A stretch of DNA of 64,000 nucleotides from Perkinsus marinus ATCC 50983 (Eukaryota > Perkinsozoa > Perkinsida > Perkinsidae): the NCBI RefSeq assembly GCF_000006405.1, contig NW_003215453.1, positions 250,662 through 314,661 on the forward strand. Direction: 5' to 3'. The translations under genes and the position numbers were made by a program. Below the pieces are notes generated by a model. That model was not told where the DNA came from, searched no databases, and saw only the letters and a program-made list of their open reading frames with translations. Of this stretch, positions 12,790-58,000 are shown piece after piece. Each line of letters opens with the position of its first letter. Positions within the stretch are counted from its first letter, which is position 1.

Positions 12790-12830
12790 CTTCAGTTAGG
12801 CGCAGGTTCGAATCCCACGGACGTCATTTT
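12790..12830 (+). other. tRNA-like 3' fragment
   Basis: B-box GGTTCGAATCC at 12805-12815 is followed by a possible acceptor strand and TTTTT. No matching 5' half lies within 90 bp upstream, so this is a fragment rather than a gene. Confidence 0.45.
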
Positions 12831-13198
12831 TAACGCATTTATTTTTTGCTGACATTCCACACATTACTAACCCGCAGTAATTGATCTTGTTCAAGACTTC
12901 AGTTGTTCTCGCGTGAACGATGACTGCTCCTCTCGATGTCCATGGTGTATTCATTGGCATTGATGGTTTTGAGATAAGAAACACGTTAATGAAGATGCTC
13001 AAAGTGAGGCTTTGACGAACATCCTTTTCTCGGCAAAGTCGATTATAAAGAAACTTTTAAGGCCAAAAAAAGTTTTTTTTTTCTCGGGAGAGCAAAAAAT
13101 TTTTTGAGAGATTTTTTTCGGGGAAAAAATTCTTATTGTCTGGCGTGGTCGATGAATTCGGTAATTAATTTTGCATCTACGCAGTGTGATAAAATATG

Positions 13199-43888: not shown

Positions 43889-46800
43889 CTAGACAGTGGC
43901 CGTACCGCTGGGACGTTTGCTGCCCTCTTTCTTCTGATTATCCTACAAACAGTGAAAATTGAACCTCATCCGTATCTTACCATGACAACCTCAAGATTCT
44001 TCCGACCCGTACTCACCCAAAACATTTGCGAGACCGATTTCTGTTCGTAAATTCGCAACATCACTTCAGCTAAAACTTGGCCCAAAGAAAGCACCTGTGA
44101 ATATCCAACTACAAATCGATCACCTGATCGATTCCAACTTACTCTGATTTTTTCACATTTCCGAGCCTGCTCCGGGAACGGTAACGAGTTAGTAATAACC
44201 ACCTCGGTCACTCCTCTGCGGTTGATGCGCTCCATCGCGGCCGGCGACAGCACGCCGTGCGTGGCATACATATAAATCCTGAGACATAACAAAAGTAGAT
44301 TTACATAGATAGAAACATAGATATATACACTAAAGTGAGAATTTTTTTCTGGGAAAAATCAAATCTCGGCATGAAAATTTTCGTCAATACAAGACGTTTT
44401 TTCCGTTTTTTACAAAACCTCCTATAGATTTTTTTCTTCCAATTATTAATATTTTCTGGAAAAAAATCTCGAGATGATAAATTTCCCGATAATTAACCTA
44501 ACAAAAACCACGTGTGATGGTTACCTTCTAGCACCATGTTGTCGCAGTTCTTCCACCGTGCGTGACATCCGCTTGCCGCTGTCGATGATGTCATCAACGA
44601 TAATGCAATCACGACCTTCAACTGAAATACAAAAGGCAGTGTTGGAGTAGGAATATATGTTCGCTTTCCTCAGCTGCTGAGCTCAGGAGTTTCCTATACA
44701 GTGTTGGAGTAGGAATATATGTTTGCTTTCCTCAGCTGAGCTCAGGAGTTCCCTATACAGTGTTGGAGTAGGAATATATGTTCGCTTTCCTCAGCTGCTG
44801 AGCTCAGGAGTTTCCTATACAGTGTTGGAGTGGGAATATATGTTTGCTTTCCTCAGCTGAGCTCAGGAGTTTCCAAAAATGATTATTGAATTAGGGTAGA
44901 AGTGTACAGAAACCAACAAGAATTTCCCAAAATTTTCCTCTCAGAATTTTCATATTGTCACCAACACATGTAGTTGACCATGTGCATATTTTCCCACACT
45001 GCCTCAAGGGGACCTAATCCGTATCATCCTCGCTTGAACCTAAGATTCCCTCACCATCGCCAACGAGCCAATCTTTCGTCACCAAAGTCGCTATAGACTT
45101 CTTCCATCCAGACGGCATGATCACTTGCTGAAAAATGACAAACATGCATCATTTTTCTAGCGGAGCGAAGCACTCACAGTCCCATCTGCAGATAAGTGCG
45201 GTTTCCCCGATATCAGTGGCTCATTAGAAACACTCCCTCTACCAACCATGGTAACCCCTTCATCGGGCGAACGCTCTGCTAATTGTGATTTACCTTAACA
45301 AATTGAAACCAGATCATTGGAGTTTCACCCGTTTCACGTGAAAAGGAAAACGCGATTTCGCGCTAGTCGTGAAATGTGTTTTTCACCAGTGTTTTCCATA
45401 TCACGCTTGAAGCTCCATTTTTATGATTGCATTGTTTATTGTGATGATTATATAGTCACAGATTAATACACTAATAGATACCTATAGTATATAATACAAC
45501 CGAGTTTCACGAGCGGCCGTGATATGAAAAACACGAGCGGAAAAACATATTTCACGACTACTGCATACCACCGCGAATATCGCGTAGAGTATTTCGCCAC
45601 TTTACATAGAACGGGTTAAACTCAGGATGTTTCTCCACCAGGATAGATTGAATCATTGAAATTTCACAACCGGTTTTACGTAAAATGGCGTCGTAAAACT
45701 CGGTGAAAAACCCGATATTCGCGGTGATATGCAGTAGTCGTGAAATATATTTTTCACTAGTGTTTTTCAAACGTCTTAAATCAAATCACAATTTCCCCAA
45801 CTTACGATTCGAAACCATCGTGGCCAGCCCACAGTTGACACCATGATTCTGAAGTCGCCGCCAAAACAAAAATGCTCTGATTCCACCACGAAAAAAAACT
45901 TCGCTCCGCTAACAATTTCTTTCTCACCTGTCGCTTGCTGTGTTGTCGGGAGAAACCACAACAGGATTATGAAGGTCTTTACTGAGGAAATATTTCAGAG
46001 GAAGCCCCAGGGGGTCTATGTTGGTAACAGGAACATCAAAACACCTAAAAATGCCCGAGGGAATCATCCAGGAACCTATAATATTCCCGGGGGTGAAACT
46101 CATTTTCGATTTTCCACGTATGGCTAGGAACACATTTTTCAATCAGTTTGCTATGTAAATATCATCACATTAAAAACAACATCCTGGGAAACGTTATTTG
46201 TAAAACTAAATGCTCCTACAAAGATTCGAACCAGATACCTTTCGCTTACCCTTCCAAACTGCCCTCGTGCAAATCCACTGCGACAACTCGATCGACACCC
46301 ATCGCCTCATACATAAGTGCGATATCGCTGGCCGCCAGAGGGGTCGCTGGTTGCGTTACTGCTGGATCCCCTGCTACACCTTCAGATTCCATGTGCCTGA
46401 ACAAAAAAACCTATGTGAAAAACGCAATATGAAGTGAATTATGACATATGTTTTTCACTAGTGTTTTCCATATCAAAGATGAAATTCAATTCTATGCATA
46501 TCAATAACATTACAAGAGAGTCTCACCCGTTTAACGTGAAGTGGTGTAATACTCCATGTGAATTTCCGATGATACAATTATTTTTCGCCAAGTGAAATGT
46601 GAGTTTTTTCGTATTACGGTTGAAACTCCAATGATATCAAATACTCAAACAAAAGAAACCCGAAAACCCGAAACCCGAATATGAAAACCCGAAACCCGAA
46701 CTCCTACCACAACTTCGTCTACACTCACCTTCCATATGCAAAGTACGGCGTAATCAACGTAATACTCTTCGCACTCGCACGACGTAACGCTGAAATCTGA

Positions 46801-48412
46801 ATAGCAATGGAGTTTAACGTGAAGTGACATAATGCTTATGTGAATCGTAAGACGTATATATTTACGCGACCGGTAATACGTTCGTTTTTCGCCAAGTGAA
46901 ATGCGAAATATGTTTTTCATATATCGCGAAAATTCCAATATTACTTATTATTGGAATTTCACCCGTTTTACGTGAATCACCGTGACATTCACGGTGATAT
47001 GCAGTAGTCGTGAAATATATTTTTCACTACTGTTTCACGACCGCCCGTGAAACTCTACCACACAAACGGAAAAAATAACTCACCATTAAACACGATTCCA
47101 TAATTGCATCATGGAGGCACCTACTGCGAGAGACCCCACTCTTCTTGCTAATAGGAAATTGCTGAAAAAGGAAACATAAACCTTCTCCTGATGACACACT
47201 TATAAATTCAGTCACTGAACATTTCTAAAAAAAATTAATTTTTATATAACGATTATCCACAAAATCGAATTTAAGTGTGGGAAAATAATATGCACATTGC
47301 CAACTTCATATGTCGGTGACATCAATAGGATTTTTCTCATAAATTCCAAAATTTTATATACGAATTTGAGAATATGAAAACTATGATGATTTTTTTGGGG
47401 GGAAAAATTTTTGAACACTGGAGTTTCATCCTAGTGATATGAAAAACACTAGTGAAAAACATATTTCACGACTACTACAGGGCGCGAATATCACCGCGTT
47501 TTTCACCGAGTTTTACGCCACTTCACGTAAAACGGGTGAAACTCCACTTTTAATCAAATTAGTATATAAATTTCTGTAATTCACGAGAAAATCCTGAGCT
47601 CAGCTGAGAAAAGGAAATATATATATTCCAACAACAAATACCCCCAGTACGAGAGATATGCACATGGTCATTCTACACATGTCGTGAAAATACGAAAATT
47701 CTGATTATTTTCCGTGAAAAAGTGTAAACATTTCTTTACTACTTGGTCGTGAAAGTCTTGAGCTCAGCTGAGAAAAGAAAACGTTTATCCCAACAAAACT
47801 CACTTGTATGATGAAACAATCCTGGCCTCGCACTTCATCCACAATATCAACTATGATTTCACCATCAGCAAACCTGAGCAAAAAAATGATGAAAATTCAA
47901 TGAAGAGAGTTTCACCCGCGAGAAGTGAGAAACACTAATACTAGTGTTTTTCACGTGAGTGAAAATTCCCACATTTCTTTATTCACAAGACGTTTTAGTT
48001 TTCGCGTTTGCGATATGAAAAAACACTAGTGAAAAAATATATATGTTACATTTAGTTTTGCTAAAAAACGCATGAAAGCAGCGAATAACGCGTAAAACAC
48101 ATAATGTGTTCTACGTGCTATGGGCTAATTTCTCTACTGTAGTTCGCCGAGTGTTTTCATATCACCGCGAATATCGCGTTTTTCACATGGAGTATCACAC
48201 CACTTCTCGTAAAACGGGCTGTGAAACTCCAGTATTGCTTGCGCCCATCAAACAAGGATTCGTAATCGATCAACATGGCGAGCGCTAAATACATGCATGC
48301 TACACAACCGCGTCACTCACTTTCCCGTATACGCCCTCCCTTCTGTGGTGCCCAAATTCGCACATATTTCCGAAGCCAATTGCTCCGAATCAGAGCAAGC
48401 GAATACTTTCAT
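43889..48412 (-). CDS. PRPS: Ribose-phosphate pyrophosphokinase (PRPP synthetase)
   Basis: Makes PRPP from ribose 5-phosphate and ATP for nucleotide, His and Trp synthesis; cytosolic. Exons on minus: 48321-48412 (ATG 48412, MKVFACSDSEQLASEI), 47804-47873 (KFADGEIIVDIVDEVRG), 47084-47161, 46729-46796 (LRRASAKSITLITPYFAYGR), 46250-46396 (EAMGVDRVVAVDLHEG), 45928-46044 (LHNPVVVSPDN), about 45806-45890 or more (GGIRAFLFWRRLQNHGVNCG), 45178-45275, 45055-45127, 44525-44621 (PRPP loop IIVDDIIDSGK), 44143-44278, 44017-44094 and 43889-43942 (stop TAG). Phases agree at all junctions but one: the joint between SPDN and GGIRAF has no canonical solution. Total is about 390 aa, longer than the usual 315, mainly from an insertion near 45178-45275. 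Introns carry family A and B elements. Confidence 0.92.
44638..45003 (+). repeat. Four-unit satellite inside a family B element (PRPS intron)
   Basis: Four units (44638-44880), alternating CAGCTGCTGAGCTC and CAGCTGAGCTC. They pass into a complete family B body ending CATGTAGTTGACCATGTGCA and CCCACACTG at 45003. This copy shows most clearly how the array grows from the element's left end. Confidence 0.95.
45317..45418 (+). mobile_element. Family A MITE copy (PRPS intron)
   Basis: GGAGTTTCACCCGTTTCACG to CACGCTTGAAGCTCC. Confidence 0.8.
45500..45775. mobile_element. Two adjacent, opposed family A copies (PRPS intron)
   Basis: A reversed copy at 45500-45618 (GAGTTTCACGAGCGGCCGTG) and a forward copy at about 45655-45775, whose right end is cut off in the TTTTTCA tract. 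Head-to-head arrangement can fold into a long hairpin. Confidence 0.8.
46511..46632 (+). mobile_element. Family A MITE copy (PRPS intron)
   Basis: GAGTCTCACCCGTTTAACGT to CGGTTGAAACTCC; diverged centre lacks GCAGTAGTCG. Confidence 0.7.
46806..47058 (+). mobile_element. Two consecutive family A copies (PRPS intron)
   Basis: Copy 1 at 46806-46937 (ATGGAGTTTAACGTGAAGTG to CGCGAAAATTCC). Copy 2 at 46950-47057 (GGAATTTCACCCGTTTTACG to CCGCCCGTGAAACTC). Both in the intron before the exon 46729-46796. Confidence 0.75.
47270..47800 (-). mobile_element. Two reversed family B copies with a family A copy inside the first
   Basis: Family B runs 47270-47640 and 47644-47800 (AGTGTGGGAAAATAATATGC; GTACGAGAGATATGCACATG). 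A full reversed family A MITE lies at 47419-47551 inside the first, so family A inserted after family B. Confidence 0.75.
48139..48232 (-). mobile_element. Partial family A copy (PRPS intron 1)
   Basis: The right two thirds in reverse orientation, ending AAAACGGGCTGTGAAACTCC. Confidence 0.65.
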
Positions 48413-48558
48413 ATCTGATTAAAGAACCGGTAAAACACAATTTCCATATACGGCATATGCAACGCATAGATATGAAAAACACGTGTGAAAAATTTATTTT
48501 ATATTTCACTTTCTTTTCATGCCACTTCACGTAAAACGGATGAAACTCTATTATATAA

Positions 48559-48797
48559 ACCTTAACAAAGTTTCACCCGTGATATGAAAAACACTAATGA
48601 GAAACATATTTCATATATCACTTCGCGTGAAACGCACATCAGCAGTGAATAACACGTGAAATTCTGCCAGTTTCTCACGTTCAACGGAATGATATTTCTG
48701 ATGCAATTCGCCAAGTGTTTTCATATCACCGCGAATAATATCGCGTTTTCACAGAGTATTACGCCACTTCACGTAAAACGAGTTCAACTCCATTACA
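48559..48797 (-). mobile_element. Family A copies between PRPS and the 48759-51103 gene
   Basis: A reversed copy from about 48565 with internal divergence ends at 48797 (CACTTCACGTAAAACGAGTTC). Its last 40 bp overlap the apparent 3' end of the next gene. Confidence 0.65.
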
Positions 48798-51103
48798 TAC
48801 CCTATGGATACTATACGATGAACAATACCCACATTCATGCTTTCCAGGATCAACATAATATTCCTCCGTTTCCTCCGACTCCAATTCCTCATCATCAACC
48901 GCCTTTCTCAACGATTCTTCTTGCGGTCTCGGAGGGCCTACACACGCAGGTTCGATTCCTGGTAGAGGCATTTTAAAAACACTTACCACTCTCGTTATCA
49001 GCAGTAGCACTAGCATATTCATCTGCTGCTGGAGAAGGAGAGGACGTAACTAACGACAAAAATCACCTAAGATTTGCAAATCTTGCTCTCTTGCATTTCC
49101 TCAACGCTATCAATATACCCAACTACAATGTATCGATAACAATACGAAGAAAAGTCGATATTCCCCCCATCGCATGATCAGCTTTGGAAACTCCTGAGCT
49201 CAGGTGAGGAAATCAAATGTATATTCCTACATAGTATACATGTAATGCATACAAACATATATTCCTACTCCAACACTCGCACTCACTTAGTCCACGAATG
49301 TAACTCGACCACTTCTCTTTTTTTTTCTCTTCAAGACAAGCTGTTCCCATCGGTGTTGCTAACAATCCCATCGCTACAGCTACTCCGAAAATACCTAACA
49401 GTTAACAAGATGTGCGTAAATGGGCCTCATTTAATGAAGCATCCGACAGAATTTCTGACTTCCCCTCTTAAAATCACGAAATTTTAAAAGTGTATAATAT
49501 TCACTATTAGATATCATCTAATGAGCATATAAACAGACAGTAATAATGTCGGGTATAAACCAGATAGTGAAAATGAAGTTTCACGGGCGGCCCTAGTGAT
49601 ATGAAAAACACTAGTGGAAAATATATTTCACGAGAATATCGGCTGTTCACAGAGTTCTCACGTCACTTCACGTAGAATGGGTGAAACTCCATCATAGTAT
49701 TATATATATTCATATATACAAGACTATGTTTTTATGGTGTTATGATCTTCTCATCACTTTTATCGCATCCATGGGAGACGCCACTCAAGCTTGTTGCATT
49801 ATAAGCCCTGATGATGGGCGCGCACTCTCAAGCTCCACGGCCAGAGTCTTGAAAGTTTTCCGCATATTTTCCTATTGCGTTCGACTGAGACAGCCGCATC
49901 GGCTAGTAACTATTTACGTTCATCAGAGAATCGAATACCCTGGTTATAGATTCCAGAATTAATGATACCGGTGGGTACTATGTTAGAATGAGAACATAGC
50001 GAATACCCCCATCGTGCAGACATGCGGGTGTTCCCGCAGAGTTGTAATATATGTAATCGCTTTCCTCAGTTGACCCTAGGAGTCTCCTCACTAACTACAG
50101 GAGTTCATATACAAACTAGGGTAGAAATGCACAGGAACCCGCAAGAATTTCGGAAATTTTCCTCAGAATTTCCATATTGTCACCAACATATGTGGTCAAC
50201 CATGAGCATATTTTCCCACACTGTGTTCCCGATGCCCCTGGAACGGCAGTGTCGTAATATATGTAATCAGCTAACCCTAGGAGTTTCCTCACTCGTAATA
50301 GGAGTCCATATATACAAGCTTGGGTAGAAATGTACAGAAACCAACAAGAATTTTGCAAAATTTCCTCCAAATGTAAAAACCATGTGCATATCTTCCCACA
50401 CTGGTGAGCAGCAATGGTATGATGGTTCAGCGGACCGCAAGCAGCTCTGACGGATGAGTGCCAGTTTGAAATTTCGAGTTTCAACGATCGTCGAAAAGTT
50501 CACTATGTGGAACTCTGATAAACAAGTTCTTCCAGCAATAAGCTACTTCACGTAAAATCGTAAAGCGGTAGCAGTCAACTACAAAGTATCAGTAATCTTC
50601 AACCTCATCGTTACAGATGTTAAGTGGCCATGACTAGCCTCAAGTGCTGCATGTGTAGCCGCACTCATTCTCCTCCTTGATTCACTCACTTCCAAAGTGA
50701 CTACAGTTCATGATGGTTACTAAAATCCATATATTATGGACCATAACTTCTTCGAATAATGTAGATATTCATTATTCCTTACATATTGCACGATCAGCTG
50801 ATGTCATCACCGCGTTGATTCAACAACAGCCATATCACTGCGATGATCGATTGTGTGAAACTCGCGCAGTGTGAGCCCCTCAAACTCATAGTTTTTTCGA
50901 GCGCCCCATGATTTCCAGCGCGTTAGGTCGCAGGTTAACATTAAGCTAACTTTTTCGCGCTAATCAAATGAGTACCCACTCTCACCTGTACCAGCCTCAG
51001 CAAACTTCTTCCTTCCTGCCAACCGTTTCCACAACGCCACTTTACTCGAAGTCCGCAAACTCCCTCTCACCGAAGCCATCGCTCGTGTCATCCACGGCAG
51101 CAT
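48759..51103 (-). CDS. Small membrane protein with mitochondrial-type N-terminus, 155 aa
   Basis: Exons on minus: 50986-51103 (ATG 51103), 49287-49394, 48987-49049 and 48759-48937. Every junction is phase 1 with GT-AG ends (GTGAGA, GTGAGT, GTAAGT). The first exon encodes a basic presequence (MTRAMASVRGSLRTSSKVAL) typical of mitochondrial import. The second encodes a hydrophobic segment (IFGVAVAMGLLATPMGTACL) followed by KEKW. The rest is acidic (DDEELESEETEEYYVD) with a CxxC-like end (HECGYC). No family recognised; perhaps a respiratory-complex or import accessory subunit. The last 13 codons and stop lie in a family A MITE. Its third intron (48938-48986) is antisense tRNA-like. Confidence 0.6.
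48938..48986 (-). other. 49-bp intron consisting of an antisense tRNA-like 3' half
   Basis: On plus the intron reads CTACACACGCAGGTTCGATT (B box 48949-48959) then CCTGGTAGAGGCATTTTAAA. This is tRNA-like T-arm and acceptor sequence followed by a T-run. On minus it supplies GTAAGTG and GTGTGTAG splice ends. Confidence 0.65.
49160..49275 (-). mobile_element. Family B copy, reversed
   Basis: TTGGAAACTCCTGAGCTCAG then ATATATTCCTACTCCAACAC; truncated at the right-hand side. Confidence 0.6.
49572..49692 (-). mobile_element. Family A copy in intron 1 of the 48759-51103 gene
   Basis: AGTTTCACGGGCGGCCCTAG to AATGGGTGAAACTCC. Confidence 0.8.
50035..50402 (+). mobile_element. Two family B copies in tandem
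   Basis: Copy 1 about 50040-50222, copy 2 about 50250-50402. Both keep GGGTAGAAATG(C/T)ACAG and CATGTGCATAT(C/T)TTCCCACACTG ends. About 28 bp of unrelated sequence separates them. Confidence 0.8.
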
Positions 51104-52034
51104 TTTCACCCAGTTAGTTTCGCGAGAGCAACTCAACGCAAAAAAAAAATCTCAATCCTGAAGTCTCAAACAGATCGATGCCGACTAAACGCAATTGATG
51201 TTATTTGGTGAAAACATAATTGTACTACTCCAACGTGGCAGATTATACGACTCACAAGTGAAACGGTCATCAACCGTAACCAGTCCAACAGCTAAAATTC
51301 ATCCGATTTCTAATAAACCGGTAGACTTTATAATAAGTTATAATAATTTAATAATAATAGTTATAATAAGTTTAAAGTTTATAATAACTTTATAATAAGT
51401 TTTCTAATAAACACAACTGGTAGACACAACAATAGTACGCAACATTCCCTCAACTACATGGGCATTTCGCCTCCTCCTATTTCCGAACGGCAACAAAACT
51501 CAAATCCAATTGACATGAAACGATTCAGAATTTCAAAAACTTATGAATTCGCGTATGAATATTTTTTCTACAACATCAACGTTTTCCTATTGCCTAATAT
51601 TCGTGGCGCTAGAAACAGTCACCGTTATCGGAGGCTTCCTATTACTCCTCGATACCCATGGCCGTCCGTCCGAATCTGAACGGGGAAAATGCAGAAAATT
51701 TTTTTTCCGAAAAAAAGTGAAAATTCCCGAATTTTTCGACAATTTAATACTGATGATAACTAGACCCTAAAAAAATTCTCTCAAGAATAAGAAGAATTCT
51801 TAAGAATTCACCTTAGCATTCAACACTGGACTGCATAATAGGCTCGCCTTTGAAAACTACGGAGCTGTATTCTCACCCAATATCAATTCCGCAACTCTTG
51901 AGAAAACTTCTCGCCTCGAGCTGCTATAAAATAATATTTCGCCATGAACTCCTTCCGATATCCAATAAACTGACAGCGGAGCGAAGCGCCTGAAAATTAA
52001 CAAAAATTCGCAAAAAACAGAAAAAATCATAAAT
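51104..52034. other. Intergenic between two minus-strand genes
   Basis: TTATAATAA-rich stretch at 51320-51400, one plus-strand ORF (51555-51770) and a GCGGAGCGAAGC motif at 51976. A minus-strand frame at about 51886-51973 (FIGYRKEFMAKYYF) follows an acceptor-like GTCAG and could be an alternative last exon of the hydrolase. Confidence 0.5.
51555..51770 (+). CDS. Small membrane ORF, 71 aa
   Basis: ATG at 51555. Hydrophobic segment (SYCLIFVALETVTVIGGFLL) then a basic tail rich in K and F. The pattern resembles loosely the first membrane segment of the protein at 41603-41950 (SAAEVLLMIALV). Coding is not supported beyond the ORF itself. Confidence 0.25.
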   Translation: MNIFSTTSTFSYCLIFVALETVTVIGGFLLLLDTHGRPSESERGKCRKFFFRKKVKIPEFFDNLILMITRP

Positions 52035-55000
52035 TTACTCTTCTATCGATTCCCCCGCAGTTTCTGCTATTTCCGAGCGTTCCAACCTAGAAAGCAGAAA
52101 CATCATCAACCCCAGTTCGAACCGCAGTTAAGGCACTTTACTTTTCAACACCAAGTAAGTTCCTAGTGGAGTGAACTGGGGCGATGAAATCACCGCCACA
52201 CAGAGTGATGTGAGTTGGCACTTCACGAAGGTCTTCAGGCCACAGAATATTCTGCGAGAGTAAAAATAAAAAACAAAAATACAAACAGCCATTGGTGCAG
52301 CAAAGTTATCAACAATGAAGTTTCACCCACTTAACGTGAAGTGGTGTAATACTCCATGTAGATTATAAAAACATATACGTTTCCGCGACCGAAAACACAA
52401 TTGTTTTCCGCGAATTGAACTGTGGAGTATGTTTACAATTGGTTTTTCTCATATCACGGGTTGCGGGTCCCATTACATCAGCATTTATCACAGAGCGCAC
52501 GCCACGGTGATCGATTTTTACACATCTCAAACGATCACCAATAACGTATTCCAAAACGAAGAGTTCATCTTGATCAATATGGTTTCTCGAAGTTGTATGA
52601 AGAACAAGTTCACAACAAGTTCAGAGCAAGTTCTGAAGTTGACAACTTGAAGTTGTTCAGAAGTTCAAAATAAAAATACAAGCAGTTGTTGGTTTTTGCG
52701 AAAAATTAACTATTTTCTTATTCCACAAGTTTCGGACAAAAGTTTTATAAAAAAACTTTTATGAACTTTGATGGAACTTCAATTAATTTTTTTTCAAAAA
52801 GTTTTACAGTTTTATCATGAAACTTAAAAAAAATAAATAATCTCAGGTCACATCAGTATGAGAAATAATATTCCCTGAACAACATCGAAGTAAATTCACA
52901 AAAAAGACAAAAAATTCTCAAAAAATTAAAAAACCCAAAATCACTAGATACACACGCGCGTCTCGAAAATTCTGCCAAAATTTTTCCCCAAAAAATTCTC
53001 ACCTCTTCCCAGAAAAAATTTCTGCAAAATGTGTGCACCGTGTAGAGCTCTCTCAATGAGAAATAAGTCGCCAGTGTGCCGAACGGATCAGCATGGTCCT
53101 GAGAAGTCACAATATTGGAGTTTCACCACCCTAGTGATATGAACAACAGTAGTGAAAAAATCACCGCGAATATCGCGTTTTTCACATGAAGTTTTACACC
53201 ACTTCACGTAAAACGGGTAGTTGTGAAACTCCAATATACTTTTTCGTAATTGACGAATATCGCGTAAGACCGGTAAAACTCCGTCGTCATCATTCGCTAC
53301 GAAAATACACCCCTCCACATATTCTTAGCATACATGGTGTGCAGCTCATAATTCATCAAAGAAGTCGAGTTTCACCCTGATATTTGAACATGATAGCTTT
53401 AGTAACACTATCACTAACCTGGCAAGGTTTCAGACTTCCATTCTACTGCTACTCTGATTTACGCACTCGACGCACTTGGAGACCTCCACATATTCTTAGC
53501 ATACTAGTTATGTCACTTATTCAAAAAGTAAAGTACGATGATAATATCAGACTAGAGTTACTCAATAGATGCTCAATAACTTGTTTTCCTCCCCTGCAAT
53601 GCCAGGACGTCAGTGAGTCGCTTCGGAAGGGAGCTTGTACAGCTTGTTATGACCTCAGGAGGAATTTGGGTCCATGCTCGAAAGACAGCCGTCCTGAGTT
53701 CCCCCAGAGTCCGAAAAATCGGTTTGTTCGGGCCATACAGAGTCTTTACCATGTAGGCCCATATATTTTCTATGGGGCTGAGGTCGGGGCTTAAGGCTGG
53801 CCAACAAGGTGGGATCACATTTCTTTCACGGAGCCAGTCGATAGTGCTCCTGCTCCCATGACAGGGAGCATTATCTTGCTGAAACGTGAGACCCTCCTCT
53901 CTAAACTCTTCCCAGTATGGTAACAGATGACGAGAGAGGACTTCTTGATAGACTTCGCTGTTCATACGGACCGTAACCTCTGCTAGAGCGACCGTATGGT
54001 CGTCTCTAATCGCACCCCATACCATGATACCACCGCCATTGAAGGCTCTCTTGCTCTTGAGCTGCTCGGCACTAGAAGGAAGGCTCCAGGTATGGTAGAG
54101 CCCATCTGGGCCATCCAGGCAGAACCGCTTCTCGTCGCTCCATATCCATTTACGAAAATTGGTGTAACCCTGGAGATGGTGCCGTGCGAAGCTCATGCGA
54201 GCAGCCTTGTGTCTGTCAGTCAGCGGCGGAGTGGTCTTCAGCTTGACGTATTGTGCCCCCTCATTCCGAATGAACCTGCGCACTGTCTCTGGTGAGACTT
54301 TTAGATCGAGCTCCGTAACTGCATCACCGGCAGACACCCCGCAGTTGTCAAAGAAATAGCGCACAACACGACGTCGGGTTCGTTCATCCATCAGAAACTT
54401 CGGTCCCCGCTTACATACAGGCCCACATTGATCCTGAGCCTTCACTACTCGACTCACCGTAGCTTGGTTGACCTGCTGAGCTCGAGCAATCTCCTTTTGG
54501 GTGTAGCGTCGACGACCGTCTGTGCCTCTCTCCGCATGCATCGCGCGGATACGCGCCCTATCTGCTGAAGTCAGGTTTTTGTTCTTCGACATAACCCAAA
54601 GTAATGACAGGACGTGGGTGGTCATGGTGGTTGACGGCGGGGCAATTTGGGTGCTTCAATGGTGCCCTATGACCAAAATCCTAGGGTGTTTCAAGAATAT
54701 GCTAAGAATATGTGGAGGTCTCCAAGTGCGTCGAGTGCGTAAATCAGAGTAGCAGTAGAATGGAAGTCTGAAACCTTGCCAGGTTAGTGATAGTGTTACT
54801 AAAGCTATCATGTTCAAATATCAGGGTGAAACTCGACTTCTTTGATGAATTATGAGCTGCACACCATGTATGCTAAGAATATGTGGAGGGGTGTACTCTT
54901 ACGATTTTCAGTGCATTGTGTAAGAGGTCGCTCTTCACCAGCAGAAAATTCACTGGGTCCACCAGCGACAGCGATCGAACTATCGATGGTTGGTACGCCT

Positions 55001-58000
55001 GAAAAATAAATTATCAAAAAATATAAAACTTTTTCACTTTTTTACCAACACCCACTTGCTAAGAATACAACCAAAACTGTGACCGATCTAAAATGCAACA
55101 ACCAGGGATCGAACCCACGACCTTCCGGATGACAACCCGGACCCTTACCACGTGGCACTGACTATACCGCCACGCTCTCAGCATATCAATAACGCACGCG
55201 CTCATCTCTCGAGCTGAGGGGAGATTCACGAAGGGTCGACACGCAATCTGAAGGGAAGGACTATTCTCAGCCATTCGCGAACGCTTTACAATTTTACGAT
55301 AATTTCCTGCTGTTGGAGTAGGAATATATATGTAATCGCTTCCCTCAGCTGCTGAGCTCAGGAGTTTCCTATACAGTGTTGGAGTAGGAATATATGTAAT
55401 CGCTTCCCTCAGCTGCTGAGCTCAGGAGTTTCCTATACAGTGTTGGAGTAGGAATATATGTAATCGCTTTCCTCAGCTGCTGAGCTCAGGAGTTTCCTAT
55501 ACAGTGTTGGAGTAGGAATATATGTAATCGCTTTCCTCAGCTGCTGAGCTCGGGAGTTTCCTATACAGTGTTGGAGTAGGAATATATGTAATCGCTTTCC
55601 TCAGCTGAGCTCAGGAGTTTCATCAACAACTATGACACAGATCTACACACGACTTCGAGTAGAAGTGTCCAAAAATCAATTGTGAAAATTTCCCCCCAAA
55701 ACTCTCATATCATCACCGACAAACGCCCATTCGGCAACACTCTCCAGAGAAAATTTGGTGACATATTTTCGTGAATTTAGTGACACCTCACAATGCCACG
55801 TCATAATTCGGGCATGAAATGAATCTTACATGTGGCATATCCACGCAAAAGATATCTCTATCGGGGAATCGTTTCGAGATGTCATACACCACTGGTATGT
55901 ATGGTAATAAACCAAGACCAATACCATGACAAAACCTGAATCAAATTCGCGCGATTTACGGTATATAATAAAATAAATTCTAAAAATACTTATAAATAAA
56001 CACCGACAACACTTCCTTATTTATCGTACAGTACTCGAGAAATTTTTTGAAAAATTTCAGTCAATTTCCCATCAATTCGCATTTAACTTGTATAATAACA
56101 AAAATATAATCTTATGGTTACCCCCAAGGCTAGTGCGCGAACTAAATTATACAATTTTTCACCATTTCTCAGTTTTTTCCCAATTTTTCATAACTTTATG
56201 AATGTCCTCAGCCTTTTACACCCAAAAATATTGCAAAAACCGGTAGCCTCCATCGTCACATACTCACTACACTTTCCAGACTTCTAAAATCTACACGAAT
56301 AATTCTCCACATCTCATCGTTCTGAACTATTCATAACCGAACGATCATTAAACTGGGGGAATTATTCCGCCAGGGGAATTCTCACACAATAGGCATCTTC
56401 CTCTGATCATTGAACTCGTCAAATCTTCTCAAAAAATGCACATCTCCGCTTCGCCCCATTCCCGGCCGATAATAATACTCCAACGATCCCGCCCGATATT
56501 TACTAATAACAACAACAACATCCCCTCCCCCAAATCGATCATCTGGGCGCGCGCTAACTCACCTGAAGCCCATACCCACCACAGGCCCCGTCATAGCTAG
56601 ATTGGTCACAGCCGGAATCGCCATATGCGTCATTGCATAGCAAATTGCTGGGCGATGACTGAGAACATATAAAAAATAATTTTCTCGCTCGCCCGAATCG
56701 AAACACCATTACTTACAGGCTCGGTAGCGCATCTTTAGTGAGTCGGAAAACCTTCACATTTTCATTGATACCATCTGAACAGAGAAACTCAATTTTTCCA
56801 TATACGGACGAAGAGTCGGAAAATTTCACCCACGAAAAAACGTTGAAAAACATAGCTGTTATTGAAATGGGATCAGTGTTAGAAGAATATATATTCTCTT
56901 TCCTCAGCTGAGCTCAGGAGCTCTTCTCCCGTTATCGACGTCAACACGTGTGATTGATTCGAACTGCAAACAATTGTGGAAATTTTCAGGAAAAAAAGAC
57001 GAAAAAACTCGGAAAATTTACGGAAAAATATAATCATGTAACTGGAGTAAACAATCGCCCTCTCGTAAAACAATCACAAAAGTCGTGATTCATTTTCCTA
57101 CGAAAAATACGACCGAACAGAATCCCTCCAAAATAGTACCCTCCCATTTAGCGCGCGCCCATTTCTCCATGTAATCCACCATAGCCTGAGGAGTGATAAA
57201 GAGATTAAAATAATAGGAAAAAAAATATATGAAAAAATTTAAAAATAATAAAAAAATGATAGAAAATAGTAAAAAAATTTAAAAAGGATCGAAAATATTT
57301 GGAAATATTATCGAATAACTGAAAACGAATATAAAATAATAAAAAAAATCAGAAAAAAAATAGAAAATAATACAAAATGATAGGAAGAAATAGAAAAAAT
57401 GGAAAATGATATCAAATAATAATAATAAGGGAATAATAGAAAAAAATGAAAAAAATAGAAAAAAATCGATAAATTTTTTTTTAAAAAATATCCATCACAT
57501 CACAAGCATCCCCCACTACCTCCATTTCCTCCTGCTCCGACGGCGTGAGTTGATCAACCTGAAAATACCCCAACATATATTCGAACCTCCGCGGAATACG
57601 ACCGATAAATCTCTTACACCCACGCTCATCCACTCCACCATACTTACTTCATATCCTTCAAAGAAATACTCTGCCATCCATATTTTCACATTCCCTCTTT
57701 TCAAAGCTTCCACAGGAGCACCACTAAACCAACTGATACAAAAAAGGAAAGATATGCACTGTTGGTGACAATATTTATATGCAATAAAAATGGAGTTTCA
57801 CCCGTGATATGAAAAAACACATTTCACATTTCACTTCGCGAAAAACGCATGTGAGCAGCGAAAAACGCGTAAAACACGTGATGTGTTTTTCATACGATAT
57901 GATGTACTTGGCCAAGTATTTTCAATTCACTTCATATCGTATTTTTCACATGGAGTATTAAACTACGCGAGTAACTAAAAAACCAAACGATTTTCTCGAT

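Follow-up and report, generated by a model that had tools for sequence, protein, structure and literature searches.

A short intron of Perkinsus marinus with the likeness of a tRNA 3' portion, and a dispersed class of similar introns

The origin of new spliceosomal introns has long been in question, and the best-known bursts of intron gain have been attributed to DNA transposons. Here we describe a 61-nt GT-AG intron in an alpha/beta hydrolase gene of Perkinsus marinus ATCC 50983 that resembles, in sense orientation, the 3' portion of a transfer RNA (tRNA). The intron lies at positions 55088..55148 on the minus strand of a 64,000-nucleotide stretch of contig NW_003215453.1 (the window, whose numbering is used throughout), and is probably a spliceosomal intron descended from tRNA-derived sequence and one member of a dispersed class. 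A tRNA source of introns would be unusual, and no report of tRNA-derived spliceosomal introns was found in the titles and abstract openings of the open-licence papers that the searches listed. If true, it would link the gain of introns to a sequence made in bulk by every cell and would explain ready-made splice signals, namely the GT of the D-loop or anticodon loop and the terminal T-run.

Several described systems are related to these introns. The tRNA-derived short interspersed nuclear elements (SINEs) share with the Perkinsus elements their relationship to tRNA, a B box at conserved spacing and many dispersed copies, but the Perkinsus copies are introns and most were seen without the A-box half. 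An A box preceding the B box was seen in one locus (L021) and in intron 212 of the DHX15 gene, but not in the short introns or in the window intron, and no shared body or 3' tail follows the T-run among 30 loci examined. The tRNA halves and fragments, as generally described, also start in the D-loop or anticodon loop and keep the 3' end, yet these are RNAs whereas the Perkinsus sequences are fixed in the genome as introns. Introners, as portrayed in extracts of a survey (PMC9860276) and of a study of Amoebophrya (PMC7789003), are similar introns at unrelated sites that have a mobile source and in some families are short and dispersed, all of which recalls the Perkinsus case. However, introners in those extracts carry marks of DNA transposons, with inverted and direct repeats, whereas the Perkinsus introns have a tRNA 3'-end likeness with no such marks seen; target-site duplications or terminal inverted repeats are named for only some introner families, and no general boundary repeat was found in 13 DHX15 introns. 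The words tRNA and SINE and the stem Perkins- do not occur in the main text of the survey, nor is tRNA named as an intron source in the 12 covered of 23 matching places in the Amoebophrya study. Within the same genome, extracts of PMC3706591 describe more than 500 copies of five tRNA types and Dada transposons residing within tRNA genes. Dada is linked to tRNA genes as the Perkinsus elements are, but it inserts into them while the tRNA-like pieces described here are located in protein genes. Known introns of P. marinus range from 39 to 1622 bp and are mostly shorter than 100 bp, according to an extract of PMC3101222.

The window intron reads, on the minus strand from 55148 down to 55088, GTAAGGGTCCGGGTTGTCATCCGGAAGGTCGTGGGTTCGATCCCTGGTTGTTGCATTTTAG. 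It begins with the 5' splice site GTAAGG (55143..55148), contains a B-box-like GGTTCGATCCC in the position of a T-loop (55105..55115) and ends with TTTTAG (55088..55093), all on the minus strand. The TTTT occupies the place of the RNA polymerase III terminator of a tRNA gene and serves in this intron as the pyrimidine tract ahead of the AG of the 3' splice site. Spliced alignment of two P. olseni proteins (P0005 and P0006) placed this GT-AG intron in phase 0 between SQCHV and IGHSFG, with an exon ending ...YSQCHV before it (55149..55247) and an exon carrying the nucleophile elbow IGHSFGCILSKWVL after it (55046..55087), both on the minus strand. The aligner was written for this analysis, allows GT-AG introns in three phases and was given no tRNA information. 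Of the 33 relatives found, 10 were aligned, with P. olseni and P. chesapeaki at the near end and dinoflagellates at the far end, and all 10 continue through the join with neither gap nor insert. Those from Perkinsus are predicted genes, one of which (P0014) bears a Trinity transcript name. Additionally, the protein across the join matches the alpha/beta hydrolase family PF00561 of Pfam over residues 1-101 of a 114-aa piece (E 2.3e-7). An alternative 34-nt intron beginning at GTCGTG also leaves the frame open, but it was rejected as the P. olseni and dinoflagellate proteins favour the 61-nt form. With GT-AG limits, and with a conserved protein apparently restored upon its removal, the feature qualifies as a predicted spliceosomal intron. 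An earlier sequence-only reading of this DNA had proposed these intron limits, the restored nucleophile elbow, a B box and a T-run doubling as acceptor tract, and on each of these points our analysis agrees with it.

The resemblance to tRNA extends well beyond the B box. When compared with 16 tRNA sequences recovered from the same genome by ARAGORN, a set that covers only some isoacceptors, the best local match of the window intron is to tRNA-Thr, with intron bases 1-44 aligning to tRNA positions 18-61 from the D-loop to the T-loop (p 0.003, the lowest value attainable with 300 dinucleotide shuffles). A matrix covering tRNA positions 49-73, built from 11 distinct genuine tRNA sequences, likewise scores the intron at p 0.002, the lowest value that 500 shuffles allow. 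The initial GT of the intron lies 34 nt before the G that precedes TTCGA, which is also the location of the D-loop GT in tRNA-Thr, Lys, Gln and Cys, and the T-loop is followed, as read from the sequence, by twelve bases, then A and TTTT, which matches tRNA positions 61-73 plus terminator in spacing. A sequence derived from tRNA would be expected to match genuine tRNAs of its own genome significantly, as this one does, and, as judged from sequence comparison, the window intron is related to a tRNA 3' portion but decayed, and is not a tRNA gene.

The element is present in many copies in the genome sequence searched (54,459,702 bases in 347 contigs). The element 18-mer GGTCGTGGGTTCGATCCC, allowing up to 2 mismatches, has 391 matches while the reversed pattern has 0, and the pattern GGTTCRANNC followed by nine free bases and GCATTT has 369 matches with 0 for its control. 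Genuine tRNA genes are among the pattern matches, for example a tRNA-Lys gene (L032), and this gene, the window intron itself (L018) and some mutual copies are included in the 30 loci fetched through the 18-mer. A search with 248 nt of context around the window intron returned only the intron itself and three places that match just the tRNA-like core. The 49-73 matrix gave 12 matches at a score of at least 16 in 202,588 bases as compared to 2, 1, 0, 1, 1 and 0 in six shuffles; this sample is small, was not selected by motif apart from the window itself and in part adjoins tRNA genes. These matches include two genuine tRNAs, a pair of near-identical copies of a single locus and the window intron, and the 8 other matches per 202.6 kb would correspond to roughly two thousand elements genome-wide, the smallness of the sample being kept in mind. 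One tRNA 3'-end-like element of the window lies outside the gene models (12802-12832, plus strand, score 20.1). At two further loci (L014 and L027) the 18-mer can be read by eye in frame as NGRGFDPGS within an open frame, perhaps an insert kept as coding sequence. In another pair (L002 and L003, on contigs C52 and C69) a 93-nt tRNA called by ARAGORN (Pro or Ser) extends into GGTATTTTAG and resembles the 3' part of an intron. These two contigs appear to be haplotype or duplicate copies of a single region (L002/L003, L062/L063, L079/L080), 96-97% identical where aligned.

The same kind of element forms introns in other genes with protein support. Nine further tRNA-like introns, in both orientations, are supported by protein evidence: one in NHP2, four in DHX15 and one each in the genes for dynein-2 heavy chain, CARNMT1, an AAA ATPase and ribose-phosphate pyrophosphokinase (PRPS). 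In NHP2, a P. marinus protein (P0001) aligns over 140/140 residues across four introns, one of which is a 46-nt tRNA-like intron. The NHP2-like protein shows no difference from a P. marinus ATCC 50983 protein over the 67% of its sequence that was matched, and a TRF4/5 piece is likewise identical to a P. marinus protein over its matched 84%. The introns around the 18-mer in the dynein-2 heavy chain (L013), CARNMT1 (L025) and AAA ATPase (L033) genes are 43-52 nt long, and PDB alignments run without a gap across the joins of the former two; the third is also PDB-supported, but has a two-residue gap beside the join. The DHX15 model, a locus picked because two listed elements lie there, has 13 introns of which 4 are tRNA-like (44, 99, 50 and 57 nt, the 50-nt one antisense), and its PDB alignment to DHX15 (E 9e-252) has gaps at other places but none at the joins of these four. 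The PRPS intron is in the window itself, where 49 nt (48938..48986, minus strand) consist of an antisense tRNA 3' end with a matrix p of 0.002 and a local tRNA alignment p of 0.007; its gene model depends on a single predicted P. olseni protein, P0005. Other loci (L006, L007, L012, L017, L020, L021, L022 and L034) are plausible by reading frame only and were not counted as supported, although a Pfam MFS_1_like match extends past the join in L007; L022 has no good PDB match. Similar introns occupy many unrelated gene positions, as introners do.

Among the introns shorter than 130 nt in the PRPS plus hydrolase region, DHX15 and one NHP2 copy, 8/25 reach a matrix p of at most 0.01. Four of those 8 had brought in their own locus, and of the other 21 introns 4 pass: DHX15 intron 212 in sense orientation, and DHX15 intron 375, 48938-48986 and 52087-52141 in antisense. 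In a motif-unselected hydrolase paralogue on contig C343, 1/4 introns shorter than 130 nt passes the same test, so that 5/25 motif-unselected short introns pass p 0.01 where 0.25 would be expected; the share is 4/25 when 52087-52141 is left out and 5/29 when the L066 intron and three other short introns of the second NHP2 copy (L023) are added. The TRF4-like gene of L066 has one doubtful intron, which was not counted. The idea that most introns of this genome are tRNA-like was rejected, as the bare 7-mer GGTTCGA is not enriched and 17/25 introns fail the matrix test. The 8 tRNA-like introns have a median length of 52.5 nt as compared to 50 nt for the 17 others. In seven sense introns of 43-57 nt the sequence from tRNA position 49 onward, counting the tail, makes up 68-84% of the length, while in the longer tRNA-like introns, the window intron among them, 40-58% of the length lies from position 49 on.

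Comparison of gene copies suggests that the tRNA-like introns are kept better than their neighbours. Two DHX15 copies (C69 and C263) are identical at 162/288 fourfold sites and have all 13 intron positions in common. Among the 12 DHX15 introns below 300 nt, similarity z scores are 12.0, 7.8, 7.7 and 7.8 for the tRNA-like introns, 10.0 for an intron carrying a second dispersed motif and 4.1, 2.3, 7.6, 4.2, 4.7, 5.7 and 1.6 for the rest; percent identity separates them less (79-86% for tRNA-like versus 64-85%). The contrast is clearest in two NHP2 copies (L015 and L023), which agree at 30/66 fourfold sites. Their tRNA-like intron has 41/44 aligned bases identical (z 10.3), a block of the second-motif intron has z 7.0 and the other two introns are unaligned (z 1.1 and 1.0). 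In the C343 hydrolase paralogue (20/59 fourfold sites identical) a 181-nt intron at the position of the window intron has a tRNA-like stretch near its 5' end (p 0.01); the direct similarity between the 181-nt and 61-nt introns is not significant (p 0.09). The better conservation of the tRNA-like part in two gene pairs suggests that something may constrain it, local gene conversion being an alternative, and raises the further question of what might recognise such a core within an intron. The second dispersed motif, CACGCGCCAYGAAATTAT, is not tRNA-like and occurs at 367 places with up to 1 mismatch (0 for the reversed control). It is found within introns of DHX15 (511 in L079), L028 (1626-1675) and NHP2 (128 in both L015 and L023) and is kept between old copies.

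Our best reading is that these sequences form an old, partly constrained intron class derived from inserted tRNA 3' portions, where the insertion and what keeps the introns are steps that we infer. In this scheme genes of an ancestral Perkinsus would have received insertions of tRNA 3' portions in either orientation, each running from the D-loop, the anticodon loop or a point closer to the variable loop through the discriminator base to the T-run of the terminator. In sense copies the 5' splice-site GT would have come from or beside tRNA sequence (the GGTAAG-like D-loop, or the TAA of the anticodon loop at positions 36-38) and the T-run would have become the pyrimidine tract ahead of the AG, such that the insert was removed by splicing. 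The likely route would be retroposition, either of tRNA fragments or of a SINE derived from tRNA. The likeness beyond the B box together with the dispersed family argues for tRNA derivation, and as several of the introns are mostly element, insertion may have created them. The tRNA match starts at intron base 1 or 2 in the window intron (D-loop), in both NHP2 copies (anticodon position 36) and in DHX15 intron 129 (tRNA-Ile), which suggests 3' fragments as the inserted form. The sequence-only reading had proposed that the window intron formed from a tRNA-derived sequence; its limits, its relatedness to tRNA and the existence of other such introns bear this out, while the insertion step is one we infer. 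A wider version can be offered only tentatively, and we give it somewhat less than even weight: that about two thousand tRNA 3' portions lie across the genome, that many became introns with loops and terminator serving as splice signals, and that their core is selected in either orientation at sites predating gene duplications.

A number of observations count against descent from inserted tRNA portions. No empty site was found at the tRNA-like intron positions in three DHX15 copies, the NHP2 pair or the hydrolase pair; for DHX15 this follows from all 13 intron positions being common to the three copies. There is no general target-site duplication, as boundary repeats of the 13 DHX15 introns measure 0-4 bp and are no longer in the tRNA-like ones; L022 has a 5-bp boundary repeat seen by eye only. 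An AG directly after TTTT is only mildly favoured (18 versus 38), the bare GGTTCGA occurs 33 times in 202.6 kb where 31.7 are expected, and the T-stem of the window intron pairs poorly by eye. Rfam reported no tRNA at threshold in the window, none within 54900-55400 at E 5 and none in eight element loci, ARAGORN found no tRNA in the window, and neither a cloverleaf nor an unusual fold was predicted in 4 introns folded. The structural tRNA search proposed in the sequence-only reading yielded no Rfam match, alignment to tRNAs of the same genome was significant, and the anticodon-arm-like hairpin described there can be drawn but belongs to a predicted fold that is no cloverleaf and has unremarkable stability (z -1.13). 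Furthermore, the DHX15 protein was spliced by eye from the same DNA before being used to call introns, which leaves the PDB alignment as the sole check, and one of the five unselected positives (52087-52141) is unsupported by local tRNA alignment (p 0.561).

These observations must be weighed against other origins for the resemblance. Pieces of tRNA pseudogenes or of a tRNA-derived SINE could have landed in pre-existing introns, the remainder of the old intron then being lost. The genome-wide dispersal of tRNA-like sequences fits with this, as do the tRNA-like stretch within the longer C343 intron at the same position and the lack of an empty site that would reveal the original state. However, because the tRNA-like introns are not longer than others and the seven of 43-57 nt are mostly element, nearly the whole old intron would have to have been lost each time, and we regard this origin as unlikely. 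It is a good deal less probable that the motif is a selected intronic signal unrelated to tRNA, such as a branch-site-like element, an enhancer or a TFIIIC/B-box binding site, that came to resemble a T-arm. Selection of this kind would account for the better conservation between old gene copies, for the unrelated second intron motif being likewise kept and for the poor T-stem pairing, and since TTCGAA is nearly its own reverse complement both orientations could serve. It does not account for likeness past the B box, from D-loop to T-loop in the window intron and L021 and into the A-box region in DHX15 intron 212, for a discriminator A and T-run at tRNA spacing, for the ARAGORN call in L002 and L003 or for the failure of most short introns in the matrix test.

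Chance resemblance is very improbable. Although an unenriched 7-mer and a silent Rfam are what chance would give, p values at the floor in two shuffle tests, 391 and 369 genome matches against 0 for controls and 5/25 unselected introns are not. About equally improbable is the presence in the intron of a functional tRNA gene, or of a mobile insertion of the Dada type into a tRNA gene. The many tRNA copies of P. marinus and the presence of Dada in its tRNA genes, as described in extracts of PMC3706591, are in favour of such an arrangement. The idea of a functional tRNA gene inside the intron was nonetheless rejected given no Rfam match and no cloverleaf; only a 3' portion is present, and no transposon end was seen in the 61 nt, with no search having been aimed at such ends.

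Two other introns of the window bear on this class. A 55-nt intron (52087..52141, minus strand) contains a possible antisense tRNA 3' end with a matrix p of 0.004, and an 89-nt intron with GGAGGTTCGAATAT...GTATTTTCAG (57559..57647, minus strand) is borderline at p 0.014. The remaining features of the hydrolase gene on the minus strand include an earlier exon encoding FCHGIGLG...DMPH (55830..55935), which is flanked by introns 55936-56385 and 55248-55829, and the exon following the nucleophile elbow (54903..54998), which was also placed by spliced alignment. Intron 55248-55829 contains direct repeats with a 64-nt period (55262-55645), represented by five in-register 128-nt copies that are 63-99% alike. 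Across 46249-56441 the predicted P. olseni protein P0005 unites the hydrolase with ribose-phosphate pyrophosphokinase, and the order in the window matches this, which could reflect a gene fusion, neighbouring genes or a joined prediction. Finally, a 360-codon open frame (53576-54655, minus strand) lies within a 1804-nt hydrolase intron (53099-54902), and presumably resembles a transposase of the Tc1/mariner type.
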